Assembly: GCA_035946615.1 (NCBI GenBank)
Contig: DASYZB010000121.1
Span: 1 to 56,098 of the forward strand
DNA: 56,098 bases
Reading direction: 5' to 3'
DNA from: Verrucomicrobiia bacterium
GTDB lineage: Bacteria; Verrucomicrobiota; Verrucomicrobiia; Limisphaerales; UBA8199
Positions 27,568 to 56,098 of the stretch are shown in pieces. The translations under genes and the position numbers were made by a program. Position 1 is the first letter of the stretch. Each line of letters opens with the position of its first letter. A model generated the notes under the pieces. The model did not search any database. It saw only the letters and a program-made list of their open reading frames with translations, and was not told where the DNA came from.

Positions 27568-28173
27568 ATGAAACTGACCAAGTTTACGAATCTTGCGGTG
27601 ATGGGACTTATCCTCACCATCGCGCTGGCCGGCTGCCGAAAAAGACCGGAATACATGACCAACATCCCTGGCGCCAGGATGGGCCAGGTCGGAGAACCTG
27701 ATACCGCCAAGCCCATCGGCTTGGAGGATAACAAACCTAAAGAAGCGACTGACGGCTTCCCCCTGGGACCGGGACATGAAGGCTGGAAAGAAGACGCGGA
27801 GGCCTTCAAAGCCGATACAGTGCATTTTGATTTCGACAGCTCGGTGGTCAAATCGGATGAAAAGCCCCACGTGGCGGCGGTAGCCGACCAACTCAAGGCC
27901 AATCCTTCCCAGGCCCTCAAAGTCGAGGGCCATTGCGACGAACGCGGCACGGAGGAATACAACCGCGCCCTGGGCGAGCGCCGGGCGCTGGCGTTGCGCG
28001 AGCAGCTTATCGGCCTGGGTATCGACCCGGCTCGGGTCGATACGATCAGCTATGGCAAAGACCGGCCTGAAGACCCCAGCCACGATGAAGCAGCCTGGAA
28101 AAAAAATCGCCGCGGGGTTTTCGTTTTATTGTCACCACAGCAACCCGTTTCTGCTGCACCTGCACAACCGTAG
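27568..28173 (+). CDS. pal: peptidoglycan-associated OmpA-family lipoprotein Pal, copy 1
   Basis: The 201-residue product starts with a lipoprotein signal peptide (LILTIALAGC, lipobox LAGC with cysteine about residue 22), then a spacer and a C-terminal OmpA-like domain: TVHFDFDSSVVKSDE, VEGHCDERGTEEYNRALGER and RVDTISYGKDRPEDP. The aspartate and arginine in the HCDERGT and NRALGERRA motifs bind diaminopimelate in the family. Pal anchors the outer membrane to peptidoglycan and interacts with TolB. It lies 21 bases after tolB and 55 bases before a close second copy. Confidence 0.92.
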   Translation: MKLTKFTNLAVMGLILTIALAGCRKRPEYMTNIPGARMGQVGEPDTAKPIGLEDNKPKEATDGFPLGPGHEGWKEDAEAFKADTVHFDFDSSVVKSDEKPHVAAVADQLKANPSQALKVEGHCDERGTEEYNRALGERRALALREQLIGLGIDPARVDTISYGKDRPEDPSHDEAAWKKNRRGVFVLLSPQQPVSAAPAQP

Positions 28174-28228: not shown

Positions 28229-28816
28229 ATGAAGCTCACCCGGTTCGCCAGTTTTCTTGCCTGCGCCGCATTGCTCTCTCTCATTTCCACCGGCTGCAAA
28301 CATCATCCACCAGGAATCACGCCCCTGCCCGGAGAGGGAGTAACGGGCCAAAATCCGGGAGTGGGCCCTGGAGGAACGCTCGAGGCGCCCGGCAGCACTG
28401 ACACTTCATCGGGAATCCCTTCCAACCCAGCCGGCGCTCACGATGGCTGGACACCGAACGCAGAGGTTTTCCAGGCCGACACGGTCCATTTCGCCTTTGA
28501 CAGTTCCGTCATCCGCCCTGAGGACAGCCCGAAGCTTGCGGCTGTGGCCGATTACTTAAAAGCCAATCCTTCCGCAGCGGCTAAAATTGAGGGGCATTGC
28601 GATGAACGCGGCACCGAGGAGTATAATCGGGCGCTGGGCGAACGCCGGGCCCTGGCACTGCGCGAGGAGTTGGTCCGCCTGGGCATCGACCCCACCCGGG
28701 TCGATACAATCAGCTACGGCAAAGATCGCCCGGAAGACCCCGGCCACAACGAAGCCGCCTGGAGCAAGAATCGCCGCGGAGTCTTTATTCTGCTGACTCC
28801 GCCCAAGGGGACATAA
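28229..28816 (+). CDS. Pal-like OmpA-family lipoprotein, copy 2
   Basis: A second 195-residue lipoprotein (lipobox ISTGC) whose OmpA-like domain is nearly identical to copy 1: FQADTVHFAFDSSVIRPED, IEGHCDERGTEEYNRALGER, ALREELVRLGIDPTRVDTIS. The linker between lipobox and domain differs and is richer in glycine/proline. This is a tandem duplication; both copies keep the peptidoglycan-binding residues, so both are probably functional. A palindromic mobile-like repeat follows the stop. Confidence 0.9.
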   Translation: MKLTRFASFLACAALLSLISTGCKHHPPGITPLPGEGVTGQNPGVGPGGTLEAPGSTDTSSGIPSNPAGAHDGWTPNAEVFQADTVHFAFDSSVIRPEDSPKLAAVADYLKANPSAAAKIEGHCDERGTEEYNRALGERRALALREELVRLGIDPTRVDTISYGKDRPEDPGHNEAAWSKNRRGVFILLTPPKGT

Positions 28817-28823
28817 CATAAGT

Positions 28824-28925
28824 GTAATCGGTTAGTGACGGCGGGCGCTGCCGCCTGAAGGCGGCGTTCCGCACCGTCCGGAACGCCGGCTTCAGCCGGC
28901 GGCCTCGTCGTCACTGAGGCATTAC
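28824..28925. mobile_element. MITE-like 102-bp palindrome with 8-bp flanking repeats
   Basis: The element starts GTAATCGGTTAGTGACG and ends with the inverse of GTAATGCCTCAGTGACG; the internal arms (TGAAGGCGGCGTTCCG against TGAAGCCGGCGTTCCG in reverse complement) make it one long imperfect hairpin. It is flanked by ACATAAGT at 28816-28823 and 28926-28933, with a further tandem copy at 28934-28941. Terminal inverted repeats plus an 8-bp direct repeat are the hallmark of a small non-autonomous element. It sits between pal and tatA. Confidence 0.6.
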
Positions 28926-29006
28926 ACATAAGTACATAAGTTTTTTTTAGAGCTTTACTATTATTCTGCTCAGGCTTAAGGTTATTACAGCATGGTTTGC
29001 TCTAGT

Positions 29007-29306
29007 ATGAATCTAATGTTTGGCATCTTCAATCTCGGCGGTGGCGAGATCATCCTCATCCTCGCCCTGGTTTTAATCCTGTTTGGCGCCAAGAAGCTGC
29101 CTGAGTTGGCAAAGGGGCTGGGAACCGGCATCAAAGAATTCAAGAAGGCCACTCGCGAGGTGACCGACGAGGTCTCGCACGCAATGGACGAGCCACCGCC
29201 TTCGCCCTCAAGACGCCTCCCCAGCGCCCCCGAAGCAACTTCCCAGACGACCGAGGCTGAACCGTCCCATACCGTTCCTCAATCTACCTCGAGTCCGAAG
29301 GCCTGA
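29007..29306 (+). CDS. tatA: Sec-independent protein translocase TatA
   Basis: About 99 residues. The N-terminal membrane helix and hinge ([20 protein letters not shown], then [20 protein letters not shown]) are diagnostic of TatA/TatB, with [14 protein letters not shown] matching TatA. A proline/serine-rich tail follows. I start at the ATG 29007; an upstream ATG at 28992 would add five residues and 29016 is also possible. It forms the translocation pore with TatC, whose gene starts 21 bases downstream. Confidence 0.9.
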
Positions 29307-34919: not shown

Positions 34920-35029
34920 GCGCCTGGCAACCCCTTTGCGGCAAAGCCTGGATTTGACGCCAACGACACTGCTGATAATCTATTGAGGAGTCCCTAAAAT
35001 GAACTACATCTTTAATCTGCCGATGCTTC

Positions 35030-35084
35030 TCCCTCTCCCCTTCCCAAGGGGAGAGGTCCGGGGAGAGGGGTCCCTCTGTATGGT
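35030..35084. repeat. palindromic CTCTCCCCTT repeat, copy 1
   Basis: The sequence contains the hairpin CTCTCCCCTTcccAAGGGGAGAG followed by GTCCGGGGAGAGGGGTCCCT. Its reverse complement closely matches 44619-44692 in the malQ 5' end. It lies between hpnH and hpnJ. Confidence 0.65.
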
Positions 35085-44593: not shown

Positions 44594-46825
44594 ATGCGCT
44601 ACAACCGGGAGATCGACAACACACAGAGGGACCCCTCTCCCCCGGCTCTCTCCCCTTCCGAAGAGGCCGAAGGGGAGAGGGAGAATTCTCGGCAGAGTCT
44701 CATCTTGAAAGCGATTTGCAATAGAGCCCTGCCCTGCCCTGCCCTGCGGCAACTGGCACGCGGGTATGGAATACATCTGTCCTATATCGATATGGCAGGC
44801 GCCCGCCATCACAGCTCGCCAGAAGCCCTTAAGGCTATTCTGGAACTCTTAGGCGCTCCCGCCGATACGGAGGACGATGTTCGCGACTCGCTCCACCTCC
44901 TCCAACAACGTCAATCACGTCAGTGCCTCCCGGAGGTGATCGTCGCCTGGGACGCCCGGCGGACCACTGTGCCGGTCCGATTGTCTGACGGTCTGGATGG
45001 CAGACGAGCTGAGTGCAAATTGGTTTTAGAAGATGGGCGTTGTAAGAAACTCCATCCGCATTCAAGCCGTTCTCCTCAAACCAGGACCGATGGCCAGACT
45101 GAGAAAGCTGCCGCCCAATCTCTGGTTTTGCCCAGTCTGCCGTTGGGTTATCACCGGCTCGAGTTGGAGGTCCGCGGACGCCACCATCAAACACTGGTGA
45201 TTTGCGCGCCTGAAAAGGCATTTCCCGGCAGACTCACGCGGAAAATCTGGGGGGCTTTTGTGCCGATGTACGCCGTCCATTCCAGTCAAAGCTGGGGTGC
45301 AGGCAACCTCGCGGATTGGACGAAGCTGATGGAATGGACCGCCTCAGTCGGGGCGAATGTCCTGGGGACACTGCCGTTGCTGGCGGCCTTTCTTGGCCCT
45401 GAGCTGTGTGAACCCAGCCCCTACTCCCCTGCCAGCCGGCTCTTTTGGAACGAGTTTTATGTCGATATTCAGCAAGTACCCGAATTCTCCGCTTCACCCG
45501 CAGCGCAAAAGCTGTTTCGCTCCCGGCCCTTCCAGCAGCGCCTGCATTCGTTTCGCCAAAGTCCCTGGATCGATTACCGGGCCGAAATGGAGTCCAGGCG
45601 CCAGGCGCTTAAACGGATGGCAGAATTCTTTTTTCATCGCGATTCAAAGCGGCGCGGGCATTTTCAATCCTTCCTTAAAACGCGTCCGCGGCTGGAGGAG
45701 TACGCCCAATTCCAGGCTGCTACCGAGCAGACGGGCAAACCTTGGACCCGATGGGAAGGACGCATGCGCTATGGCAGGCTGCAGCCGGGCGACTACTCAG
45801 AATCGGCCCGGCAGTACCACCTCTATGCGCAATGGGTCGCGGATTGCCAAATCGCGGCCTTCAACCAGCGCTGCCGCCAGCGCGATATCCAGACCTATCT
45901 CGATCTCCCGCTCGGCGTGCACACTGCCGGTTACGATCTTTGGCGCGAACGTGATTCCTTCGCCTTTCCGGCTGCTGCCGGCGCCCCGCCCGATCTCTAC
46001 TTCACCCAGGGCCAGAACTGGGGGTTTGCGCCTTTGCACCCCCAGCGCATTCGCCAGCGTCACTTCGGCTACGTTATCGAGTATCTGCGCTTCCAATTGC
46101 GTTGCGCTCGTGTGTTGCGCATCGATCATGTCATGGGCTTGCACCGCCTTTACTGGATACCGCCCGGCTTCCCAGCCAGTCTGGGCGCTTACGTTTCCAA
46201 TCCCGCCGAGGAGTTGCTGGCCATCCTGTGCCTCGAATCCCACCGGCATCAGGCGCTCCTGGTGGGCGAGAACCTCGGCACCGTTCCCCCCGAGGTCAAT
46301 AGCGCCATGGCCCGTCACCAATTACGCGAAACTTACGTCCTCCAGTACGAACAGCGACCCAATGCAGCCCACCCGCTTCGGCCTCCGCCTCCGTTCAGCC
46401 TCTGCAGCATCAACACCCACGACATGCCACCCTTTGCCGCACACTGGCGCGGCTTGGACATTGCCGATCGCTTTGAGTTGGGCCTCATCCCACGCCGTAA
46501 GCTCTCTACGGAATATAAAACCCGCACCCGCATGAATGCGGCGCTGGCAAAGTTTCTTGAACGCGCCGGCCTGCTGAAAACCGGCTCAAAGGATGGCGCC
46601 GCCGTATTGCGCGCCGCTCTGCGCTGGCTGGCGGCCAGTGAAGCGGAAGCTCTCTTGGTCAATCTGGAGGACCTCTGGGGTGAAGAGCGCCCGCAGAATG
46701 TCCCCGGCACCTCAATCGAGCTCCCCAACTGGCGGCGCAAAACAAAACTGTCCCTTGAGGAGATTCTGACTAACCCATCAATCCGCGATTTGCTTAGGAG
46801 CCTCGCAAGGAAGAGGACACATTGA
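44594..46825 (+). CDS. malQ: 4-alpha-glucanotransferase with repeat-derived N-terminus
   Basis: The frame gives 743 residues; recognisable MalQ sequence starts near residue 50 (LRQLARGYGIHLSYIDMAGA) and includes PSPYSPASRLFWNEFYVD, GHT-type catalytic blocks DLPLGVHTAGYDLW, VLRIDHVMGLHRLYWIP (nucleophile aspartate), LLVGENLGTVPPEV (acid) and SINTHDMPPFAAHW. It transfers maltodextrin units between glucans. The first 35 codons are a translated palindromic repeat (44619-44692), so the true start may be the TTG at 44705 just after it. Downstream of treS by 14 bases. Confidence 0.88.
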   Translation: MRYNREIDNTQRDPSPPALSPSEEAEGERENSRQSLILKAICNRALPCPALRQLARGYGIHLSYIDMAGARHHSSPEALKAILELLGAPADTEDDVRDSLHLLQQRQSRQCLPEVIVAWDARRTTVPVRLSDGLDGRRAECKLVLEDGRCKKLHPHSSRSPQTRTDGQTEKAAAQSLVLPSLPLGYHRLELEVRGRHHQTLVICAPEKAFPGRLTRKIWGAFVPMYAVHSSQSWGAGNLADWTKLMEWTASVGANVLGTLPLLAAFLGPELCEPSPYSPASRLFWNEFYVDIQQVPEFSASPAAQKLFRSRPFQQRLHSFRQSPWIDYRAEMESRRQALKRMAEFFFHRDSKRRGHFQSFLKTRPRLEEYAQFQAATEQTGKPWTRWEGRMRYGRLQPGDYSESARQYHLYAQWVADCQIAAFNQRCRQRDIQTYLDLPLGVHTAGYDLWRERDSFAFPAAAGAPPDLYFTQGQNWGFAPLHPQRIRQRHFGYVIEYLRFQLRCARVLRIDHVMGLHRLYWIPPGFPASLGAYVSNPAEELLAILCLESHRHQALLVGENLGTVPPEVNSAMARHQLRETYVLQYEQRPNAAHPLRPPPPFSLCSINTHDMPPFAAHWRGLDIADRFELGLIPRRKLSTEYKTRTRMNAALAKFLERAGLLKTGSKDGAAVLRAALRWLAASEAEALLVNLEDLWGEERPQNVPGTSIELPNWRRKTKLSLEEILTNPSIRDLLRSLARKRTH
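44619..44692. repeat. palindromic CTCTCCCCTT repeat, copy 2, inside malQ 5' end
   Basis: Contains ACAGAGGGACCCCTCTCC and the hairpin CTCTCCCCTTC, loop, GAAGGGGAGAG. In inverted orientation it matches 35030-35084. Translated in the malQ frame it gives PSPPALSPSEEAEGERE, which is unlike any MalQ. Confidence 0.65.
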
Positions 46826-54921: not shown

Positions 54922-54975
54922 GGGCCAAAATCTAGTATGTTGACAATATAATAACGTTACATTAGCCTGGTTGGG

Positions 54976-55419
54976 ATGAAACCCAACCAAATCCAATTGG
55001 GCTCCGGAGATCGACGCTTTTTAGAGGCTTTCCGGAGCAAAGGTCAGCACTCGGCTCGGGAGGTGACGCGCGCCCATATTTTATTGGCGGCGGAGGCGCG
55101 AGTGCCCGCGGCGCACATCCAACAAGTCCTCGGTGTAAGCCGGATGGTCATTTGGCGCACGCAATCGGCCTATGCTGAGAAGGGATTGGATTACGCCCTT
55201 TACGATGCGGCGCGTCCGGGCCAACCAGCCAAGTATGGCACCGACCAAGAAGCCGAAGTAGTAGCCCTGGCGCGCAGCCAACCGCCCGAAGGCGCCGTGC
55301 GTTGGACAGTCCGCTCGCTAACCATCGCGGCGCGGCACCGGCCCAAATTGGAAGGCATCAACCGGGAGAGCATCCGCCAAATTCTAAAAAAAACGTCTGT
55401 AAACCTTGGCGCAAAATGA
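54976..55419 (+). CDS. IS630 transposase, N-terminal part (frame 1)
   Basis: 147 residues with a helix-turn-helix DNA-binding region (AREVTRAHILLAAEARVPAA, IQQVLGVSRMVIWRTQSAYA) that recognises the inverted repeats, ending at RESIRQILKKTSVN. An A8 run at about 55386-55393 lies near its end, where the second frame begins. Standard IS630 elements make the full enzyme by -1 ribosomal frameshifting on such runs. Confidence 0.85.
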   Translation: MKPNQIQLGSGDRRFLEAFRSKGQHSAREVTRAHILLAAEARVPAAHIQQVLGVSRMVIWRTQSAYAEKGLDYALYDAARPGQPAKYGTDQEAEVVALARSQPPEGAVRWTVRSLTIAARHRPKLEGINRESIRQILKKTSVNLGAK

Positions 55420-56078
55420 TGTGGTGCATCGGGCGAATCACCACCGGATACCGAGAGCGCATGTACGAGTTGCTGGGTCTGTATGCCAAGCCCTATGATG
55501 CCACCGAACCGGTGGTTTGCTTGGATGAAAAGAGTAAGCAACTGTTGCAGCAGACCCGTCCCCCAATTCCAGCAGCTCCGGGCCAAATTGCCAAAGAAGA
55601 CTACGAATACAAACGGGCTGGTACACGGAACCTGTTTGTGGCGGTGGAACCCAAGGGCGGTCATCGCGAGGTGGAAGTGACTAAGCGGCGCACCAAACCC
55701 GATTTCGTGGCCTTCGTACAATTCCTGGCGCTGGAGGTCTATGCTCAGGCACGCAAAATCCATTTGGTCATGGATAATCTGAACACCCATTTTCGTGCGT
55801 CATTTGAGGAGACCATGGGGAGGGAAGCGGCAGCCGTGTTTCTGTCGCGGCTGGAGTTCCACTATACGCCCAAGCACGCCAGTTGGTTGAACATGGTCGA
55901 GATCGAGATCGGGATTCTGGACCGGCAATGCACAGGACGGCGAATCGGCGATGAAGCACAGTTGTGCTCCGAAGTGCTGGCCTGGGAGCAACGCCGGAAT
56001 GAGGCGCAATCTCGGATTGAATGGAAGTTCACCCGCCAGGATGCCGACCGGAAACTAGCACGCCACTATGTAACGTAA
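55302..56078 (+). CDS. IS630 transposase, catalytic part (frame -1)
   Basis: The -1 frame relative to the upstream part continues the protein after the A8 run as KKNVCKPWRKMMWCIGRITT and contains the DDE triad: VVCLDEKSKQ, HLVMDNLNTH and ASWLNMVEIEIG. The true fusion begins near 55386; the earlier ATG at 55302 is probably not used by itself. Full-length protein about 365 residues, normal for IS630. No stop or deletion is visible, so the element may be active. Confidence 0.85.
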   Translation: MDSPLANHRGAAPAQIGRHQPGEHPPNSKKNVCKPWRKMMWCIGRITTGYRERMYELLGLYAKPYDATEPVVCLDEKSKQLLQQTRPPIPAAPGQIAKEDYEYKRAGTRNLFVAVEPKGGHREVEVTKRRTKPDFVAFVQFLALEVYAQARKIHLVMDNLNTHFRASFEETMGREAAAVFLSRLEFHYTPKHASWLNMVEIEIGILDRQCTGRRIGDEAQLCSEVLAWEQRRNEAQSRIEWKFTRQDADRKLARHYVT

Positions 56079-56098
56079 TTATATTGTCACGATACTAG

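Follow-up and report, generated by a model that had tools for sequence, protein, structure and literature searches.

A dispersed MITE at a pal-tatA junction in a Verrucomicrobiia genome, with IS66-type ends, a REP-like hairpin core and a probable IS66 mobiliser

The window, the whole stretch of 56,098 nucleotides that was analysed, contained an OmpA-domain (Pal-like) gene at positions 28229-28816 of the plus strand (PF00691, E 4e-18) and tatA downstream of it at 28992-29306, also on the plus strand (PF02416, E 1e-19). The former was the second of two tandem OmpA/Pal-like genes (27568-28173 and 28229-28816), which were 73% identical over 300 nt and apparently arose by local duplication. The end of the contig was occupied by an IS630-family element (54932-56098) with 31-nt terminal inverted repeats (TIRs; 90% complementary). 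Its overlapping ORFs, 54976-55419 and 55302-56078, lay in different frames and both matched NF033545, one of them below the cut-off.

Between pal and tatA, a foldback of 102 bp without coding capacity was located at 28824-28925 (plus strand), bounded by GTAAT...ATTAC. The TIRs were better taken as about 20 bp long, with GTAATCGGTTAGTGACGGCG on the left (28824-28843, plus strand) and GTAATGCCTCAGTGACGACG on the right (28906-28925, read on the minus strand). The 8-mer ACATAAGT flanked the element on the plus strand at 28816-28823 and 28926-28933, and an exact tandem repeat of it followed outside the element at 28934-28941. Base 28816, the first of the left 8-mer, was also the final base of the pal stop codon. 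A 102-bp palindrome with 8-bp direct repeats and a third copy on the right had been proposed in the original prediction, and foldback and repeats were all present in the sequence at those positions. Inside it, one hairpin unit was followed by a second in the opposite orientation, GGAACGCCGNNTTYANNCGGCAGC. Unit 1 (28847-28870) read GGAACGCCGCCTTCAGGCGGCAGC on the minus strand and matched the hairpin pattern described below exactly; unit 2 (28880-28903, plus strand) read GGAACGCCGGCTTCAGCCGGCGGC and was its inverted repeat. As single-stranded DNA, 28800-28960 folded with -45.6 kcal/mol (z = -6.9), and none of 200 shuffled sequences was equally stable. The 12-base arm was not in excess over chance within the window, with 11 matches against 13.0 expected.

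The own genome (G000) was a 5.6 Mb draft of 161 contigs. With 28816-28941 as the query, 40 of 101 candidates were scored and gave at least 41 matches at 40 places, one of which matched in both orientations. A genome search for the terminal repeat had been suggested along with the palindrome, and it returned 47 matches of the left end GTAATCGGTTAGTGACGGCG at up to three mismatches, compared with one for the reversed-pattern control. Of these 47 matches, the 46 other than C116:40558 were examined for a second end. Up to three substitutions were allowed in the left end and up to four in the right end, and the target-site duplication (TSD) played no part in the selection. This gave 42 different two-ended copies, designated family A. 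Four left ends had no right end in range: one in the hybrid L034, two in a broken, nested copy in L067 and one in L069. The copy in L067 was broken at about 1495-1600 (C113, by eye) by a nested insertion resembling a GGGGAGAGGGGTCCCTCTGTRTG repeat; repeats of this kind also occurred twice, inverted, in the window (35016-35082 and 44620-44696). L069 held a 72-bp GTAAT...ATTAC element with another core and no clear TSD (1216-1287, C73), perhaps a shorter relative.

The 8-mers flanking the 42 copies were identical in 37, agreed at 7/8 positions in four and at 5/8 in one (L035). No target consensus was obvious across the 42 TSDs. For flank lengths of 2-7 and 9-13 bp, the mean identity across the 42 copies was 23-30%, which corresponds to background. 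Copy length was 101 bp in 34 cases, 102 bp in six, and 100 and 105 bp in one case each. The modal 101-bp copy read GGAACGCCGGCTTCAGCCGGCAGC at hairpin unit 2, as opposed to GGAACGCCGGCTTCAGCCGGCGGC in the window. The 34 copies of 101 bp had a mean pairwise difference of 2.2 and 11 were identical, which shows that the family was amplified recently. Among the 41 copies with enough flank for comparison, four were inserted within ORFs of at least 150 aa, compared with 77% of random positions at the same loci; by this ORF proxy, applied without a gene caller, family-A insertions avoid genes. The element was short and lacked a transposase gene, and it showed fixed TIR boundaries, a constant 8-bp TSD and at least 42 dispersed copies. 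Judged by these features, the pal-tatA palindrome is a real and recently active miniature inverted-repeat transposable element (MITE). The original prediction had likened it to a small non-autonomous transposon, which agrees with the near-identical copies, the defined ends, the 8-bp TSD differing from site to site and the related IS66 ends described next. Neither the IS66 type of the ends nor a REP-like hairpin pair shared with other element families had formed part of that prediction.

For the IS66 family, the accessible part of one report gives 8-bp direct repeats, 23-bp inverted repeats and ends starting with GTAAGCG (PMC11946415), and that of another tables 8-bp direct repeats for two IS66 elements (PMC3281130). 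An IS66 element of 1854 bp was present in genome G009, which belongs to the same family as the own genome (L154:603-2456). It had the ends GTATCCCCTCAGTGACGGCG and GTATTCCCTCAGTGACGGCG and a TSD, CATTTTTG, identical at 8/8 positions, and encoded a DUF6788 ORF and a transposase. The L154 protein matched PF03050 (E 3.5e-34) and the IS66 model NF033517 (231.7 bits, cut-off 180). In four comparisons between the MITE ends and the L154 ends, 15-17 of 20 positions were equal, with 16 and 17 for the right TIR of the window copy. A second IS66 element of G009 with GTAAGCG ends (L149), which served as positive control, was recovered with an 8/8 TSD. Genome G082 contained four IS66 copies with the ends GTAATTGATTAGCGGG, equal to the MITE ends at 9-12 of 20 positions; the TSD was 8/8 in one of them (L173) and absent in the other three.

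The strongest link of the MITE ends to IS66-type ends was an own-genome hybrid copy, L049, with GTAATCGGTTAGTGACGGCG on the left, GTATCCCCTCAGTGACTACG on the right and an 8/8 TSD, TGCCGAGG. Its right side carried an L154-type end, GTATCCCCTCAGTGAC, which was also found in L138 and L142. If the TSD of L049 records one insertion event, one enzyme would have handled both end types. The GTAAGCG start was absent from these ends, which start with GTAAT or GTATC. Other IS66 elements of the order, however, combine an 8/8 TSD with ends in GTAT or GTAATTG, so that the GTAAGCG start is not universal among IS66 here.

An intact IS66 element was not detected in the draft of the own genome. Two partial PF03050 matches were detected, both near contig starts, and neither showed MITE ends, so that the transposase now acting on family A was not found in this draft. 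A transposase with matching ends, which had also been suggested as a search target, was accordingly recovered in a related genome (L154) and not in the own one. The IS66 remnants on C4 and C26 were rejected as parent: their apparent right ends, GTAACAGTTTAGC and GTAACTGCTCAGG (by eye), shared the form GTAAYNNNTYAG and differed in sequence. Near the start of C4 (L062:627-2874), a MITE copy had an IS66 remnant and a RAYT-type Y1_Tnp fragment as neighbours, all three within 2.3 kb. Paired ends with a TSD of at least 7/8 were recognised at 2 of 36 scanned IS66 loci. L060, L061 and L101-L121 yielded none (0/23); L149-L161 yielded two (2/13), and of both, only L154 had MITE-type ends. Of 313 genomes of the order searched with the L154 protein (E <=1e-30, up to five candidates scored per genome), one encoded it in full; G012 had a fragment of 72% identity, and G082 had relatives of about 30% identity. 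Viral contigs gave neither a TIR match nor a relative of the transposase.

Elements with the same ends were also detected outside the own genome. All genomes listed besides G000 were from other genera. Of 320 genomes of the order, six, counting the own one, had the left end at up to two mismatches, and one (G046) matched the reversed control; because of this control hit, single matches may be due to chance. Two-ended elements were found in G012 (5 of 8 matches) and G009 (1 of 1). In G074, G079 and G095, the ends were unpaired. L089, L090, L091 and L098 each held one unpaired end-like string, and L094 and L097 were half elements; L166, L168 and L169, from a second collection, duplicated L099, L093 and L100 and were counted once. 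In G012, L092 had kept the asymmetric ends GTAATCGGTTAGTGACGGCG and GTAATGCCTCAGTG with an 8/8 TSD around a core built on a GGGCGCGTCACTCCGTGCGCGCC-type pair. L095, L096, L099 and L100 of the same genome were 179 bp long, with GGAGTGCGCCCGTCCTCGGGCGCAGC-type pairs and TSDs of 7, 7, 6 and 6 of 8; one GGAGTGCGCCCGTCCTCGGGCGCAGC-type unit of L096 had a broken stem. The element of G009 (L093) measured 155 bp, with an 8/8 TSD and a GGAGCGCGGCTGTCCTCAGCCGCAGC-type pair. A scan for GTAAYSGGTYAGTGACGGCGG in one genome per species (84,980 species, the own genome possibly excluded) matched eight contigs. All eight were from Limisphaerales, Verrucomicrobiales or Verrucomicrobia MAGs. By the positions of the matches, PLZQ01 corresponds to G012, PSRM01 to G009 and JAQGOU01 to G074, so that no genome was added. 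Kinships of this kind would place the organism of the window in Limisphaerales.

The core was an inverted pair of REP-like hairpins of the form GGARY-stem-loop-stem-AGC. The unit pattern, with up to two mismatches, had 118 matches in the own genome. It leaves the NN..NN stem positions free, and these paired in 99 of the 100 matches listed (GC/GC 54, CC/GG 42, CA/TG 2, CG/CG 1), C41:4467 being the one unpaired case. Among the same 100 of 118 matches, 79 lay beside a family-A left end and 21 elsewhere, the latter at 16 places that were classified by eye. Since the pattern was derived from family A, hairpins less like those of A would escape it. Of the features by which REPs and REPINs are recognised, a short hairpin, conserved borders and inverted pairs were present, and further such hairpins occurred in relatives, where they were collected for perfect stems. 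A GTAG or CGTC tag was absent from the own core (GGAAC); the G012 half element L094 read GTAGGGCGCG, a tag of the GTAG/CGTC type. The GC-rich arms had been believed to be dispersed in the phylum. This was partly right: the hairpin unit had its 118 matches in the own genome, and parts of the core matched in 5 of 145 other genomes (up to six candidates scored per genome). At 13 scanned loci of such core matches in other genomes, no MITE ends were seen beside the hairpin.

At eight of the 16 places, the element belonged to family A in degenerate, half or hybrid form (L129, L131, L133, L135, L136, L138, L142 and L144). Four were affiliated with a family B (L134, L140, L141 and L143), two with a family C (L132 and L137) and one with a family D (L139); L130 was outside these. 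Family B was a second MITE-like family, 132-134 bp long when complete (L134, L140, L141, L143, L176 and L178), with loci on C60, C105, C108, C117, C13 and C81. Its ends, GAGCGCATCTTGACACTGCC, had 12 matches and the control none. Four B elements had both ends; their flanks of 9 bp agreed at 9/9 positions in L178 and L182 and at 8/9 in L177 and L179. Two further B-type ends (C79 and C134) adjoined apparent transposase remnants. The C79 fragment had a weak match to NF033572, a model of ISKra4 (20.4 bits against a curated cut-off of 205; E 2.3e-4), and the second fragment had none, so that an ISKra4 origin of the family B ends is a lead only. Family C, with the ends ATATTTCACAC, comprised two elements (L132 and L137, on C49 and C87), in which no TSD was recognised, and one hybrid end. 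Family D comprised one element (L139, C98), with the ends CAATTCKCAYTTTG assigned by eye, and one hybrid. No transposase was identified for C or D, and no TSD for D. The GGAAC sides of the hairpins faced inward in A and D and outward in B and C, suggesting separate captures instead of one cassette copied by homology. In the hybrid L064, an A end, one hairpin unit and a C end followed each other; in L136, an A end, the hairpin pair and a D end. Both switch end type at the hairpin, which indicates that ends are exchangeable there.

An exact extra TSD copy directly outside the element was found on 3 of the 84 sides of the 42 family-A copies, compared with 0.004 expected. Extra copies at 6/8 or better occurred on 7 of 84 sides, compared with 0.43 expected from positions elsewhere at the same loci or 0.19 from positions 30-100 bp away. 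The exact cases were L001 (the window copy), L011 and L020, in all three on the right side. L001 and L020 had two tandem units right of the element and one left, and the extra copy of L011 was situated in a visibly repetitive stretch. This excess and the tandem pair to the right of the window copy are what would be expected if the three ACATAAGT copies were a slipped tandem repeat and no TSD. That explanation is scarcely credible, however: 41 of the 42 copies were flanked by 8-mers of differing sequence that agreed at 7/8 or better, which identifies the outer pair as a TSD and leaves only the third copy in need of a separate cause. A tandem target, or the remnant of an element that had once inserted at this place and been lost, may account for it equally, and extra right-side copies could mark repeated insertion at a single spot. 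The strong fold and the run of eight T from 28941, after the extra ACATAAGT copies, would also suit a terminator, an RNA-processing site or another functional hairpin conserved at the pal-tatA junction. Identically bounded copies occupied dozens of sites in unrelated flanks, nearly all with their own duplicated 8-mer, which makes this highly improbable; Rfam gave three weak matches to microRNA models far below the gathering scores (best E 0.00067). A secondary, putative effect of the MITE on transcription may exist.

The make-up of the core, two short hairpins in opposite orientation with conserved borders, and the seven Y1_Tnp matches in the own genome would fit a REPIN, in which a RAYT moves an inverted REP pair and the outer repeats are incidental. 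The copies, however, had constant GTAAT boundaries and 8-bp TSDs, and no such target duplications are known from RAYT movement; the TSDs disfavour it. When the seven Y1_Tnp stretches were searched with up to five mismatches, four had no match, L125 and L127 had one loose string each, and the two units at the seventh locus (L128, C4) belonged to the neighbouring MITE copy. A paired hairpin of the own-core kind was unseen at six of the seven Y1_Tnp loci; other inverted repeats were present at four of five such loci scanned and at the fifth there were none. The REPIN reading is very unlikely. Ends from another DDE family with 8-bp TSDs would be compatible with an own draft in which no intact IS66 bearing MITE ends was detected, and the search for a full element was centred on IS66, other families having been sought less hard. 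This origin is nevertheless unlikely: the transposase of the full element that has a TCAGTGACGGCG end is of the IS66 family, and the perfect TSD of the hybrid L049 assigns its two end types to a single enzyme.

The MITE was most likely moved by an IS66-family transposase. With high probability, it is a 101-102 bp element whose IS66-type ends are moved in trans by such an enzyme and whose REP-like core is separable from them. The ends, the TSD length, the recent amplification, the avoidance of genes and the sharing of L049 by MITE and IS66-type ends were read from the sequence. For the mover and the chemistry, we infer that an IS66 transposase would recognise both MITE ends in trans and insert the element with an 8-bp stagger, and gap filling would yield the 8-bp duplications.

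To judge from the cores and hybrids described above, the ends and the core are separable modules. Within one genome, a single hairpin class was combined with apparently four end types in MITE-like elements, the fourth (D) being represented by one element and a hybrid. One of the end types enclosed four or more hairpin sequences in three genomes. How cores are exchanged can be inferred from the two hybrid elements and the two hairpin orientations: most probably, IS ends became joined on several occasions to both sides of hairpin pairs that already existed, and recombination at common hairpins would occasionally swap an end. A more far-reaching reading is put forward tentatively, as possible though rather doubtful. 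In it, REP-class hairpin pairs of Limisphaerales would be a portable core, repeatedly captured between unrelated transposon ends, of IS66 type, perhaps of ISKra4 type and apparently of two further types, with several transposases spreading them. If so, the hairpin would be the persisting unit, its vehicles being changed by recombination at the arms, and not filler in a decayed IS. MITEs are usually explained as insertion sequences that lack their middle, and REP pairs are usually credited to RAYTs. The elements described here offer a testable system for how miniature elements gain interiors and whether the hairpin itself is selected.

Among known systems, the closest were bacterial MITEs such as MITEPsy1, MITEPsy3, MITECca01 and MITEPye1 (PMC3189936, PMC6053426, PMC9769881, PMC11578231, PMC3733652). 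As far as the accessible text of these reports goes, they are likewise small, lack an ORF and have TIRs and ends like those of IS families, and several share TSDs, an intergenic bias or a foldback; MITEPsy3 is also 102 bp long, with 78 copies. Their ends are of IS5, Tn3, IS982 or IS1182 type, or they are probably moved by ISPsy25 (listed under IS630), whereas the present element has IS66-like ends and a REP-like hairpin-pair core that differs between genomes. With IS66 insertion sequences, as presented in the parts available, it shares the 8-bp TSD and terminal repeats of about 20 bp (PMC11946415, PMC3281130). Full IS66 elements with related ends were those of G009 and, more loosely, G082. Unlike IS66, the MITE has no transposase, and the ends start with GTAAT or GTATC instead of GTAAGCG. 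REP dimers (PMC3733652), BIMEs and REPINs (PMC3116915) likewise combine two short hairpins in inverted orientation, with conserved borders. The present pairs differ in being enclosed by transposon ends and TSDs; the tag of the own-genome core is GGARY as opposed to GTAG or CGTC in REPs, and no matching RAYT was found. Neither an IS66-type MITE nor a MITE around a REP pair was found described in the accessible portions of open-licence full texts, which include few subscription journals. An IS66-mobilised MITE alone would be a further example of a known element class; the modular build of IS ends and a REP-like core goes beyond it and is the new part.
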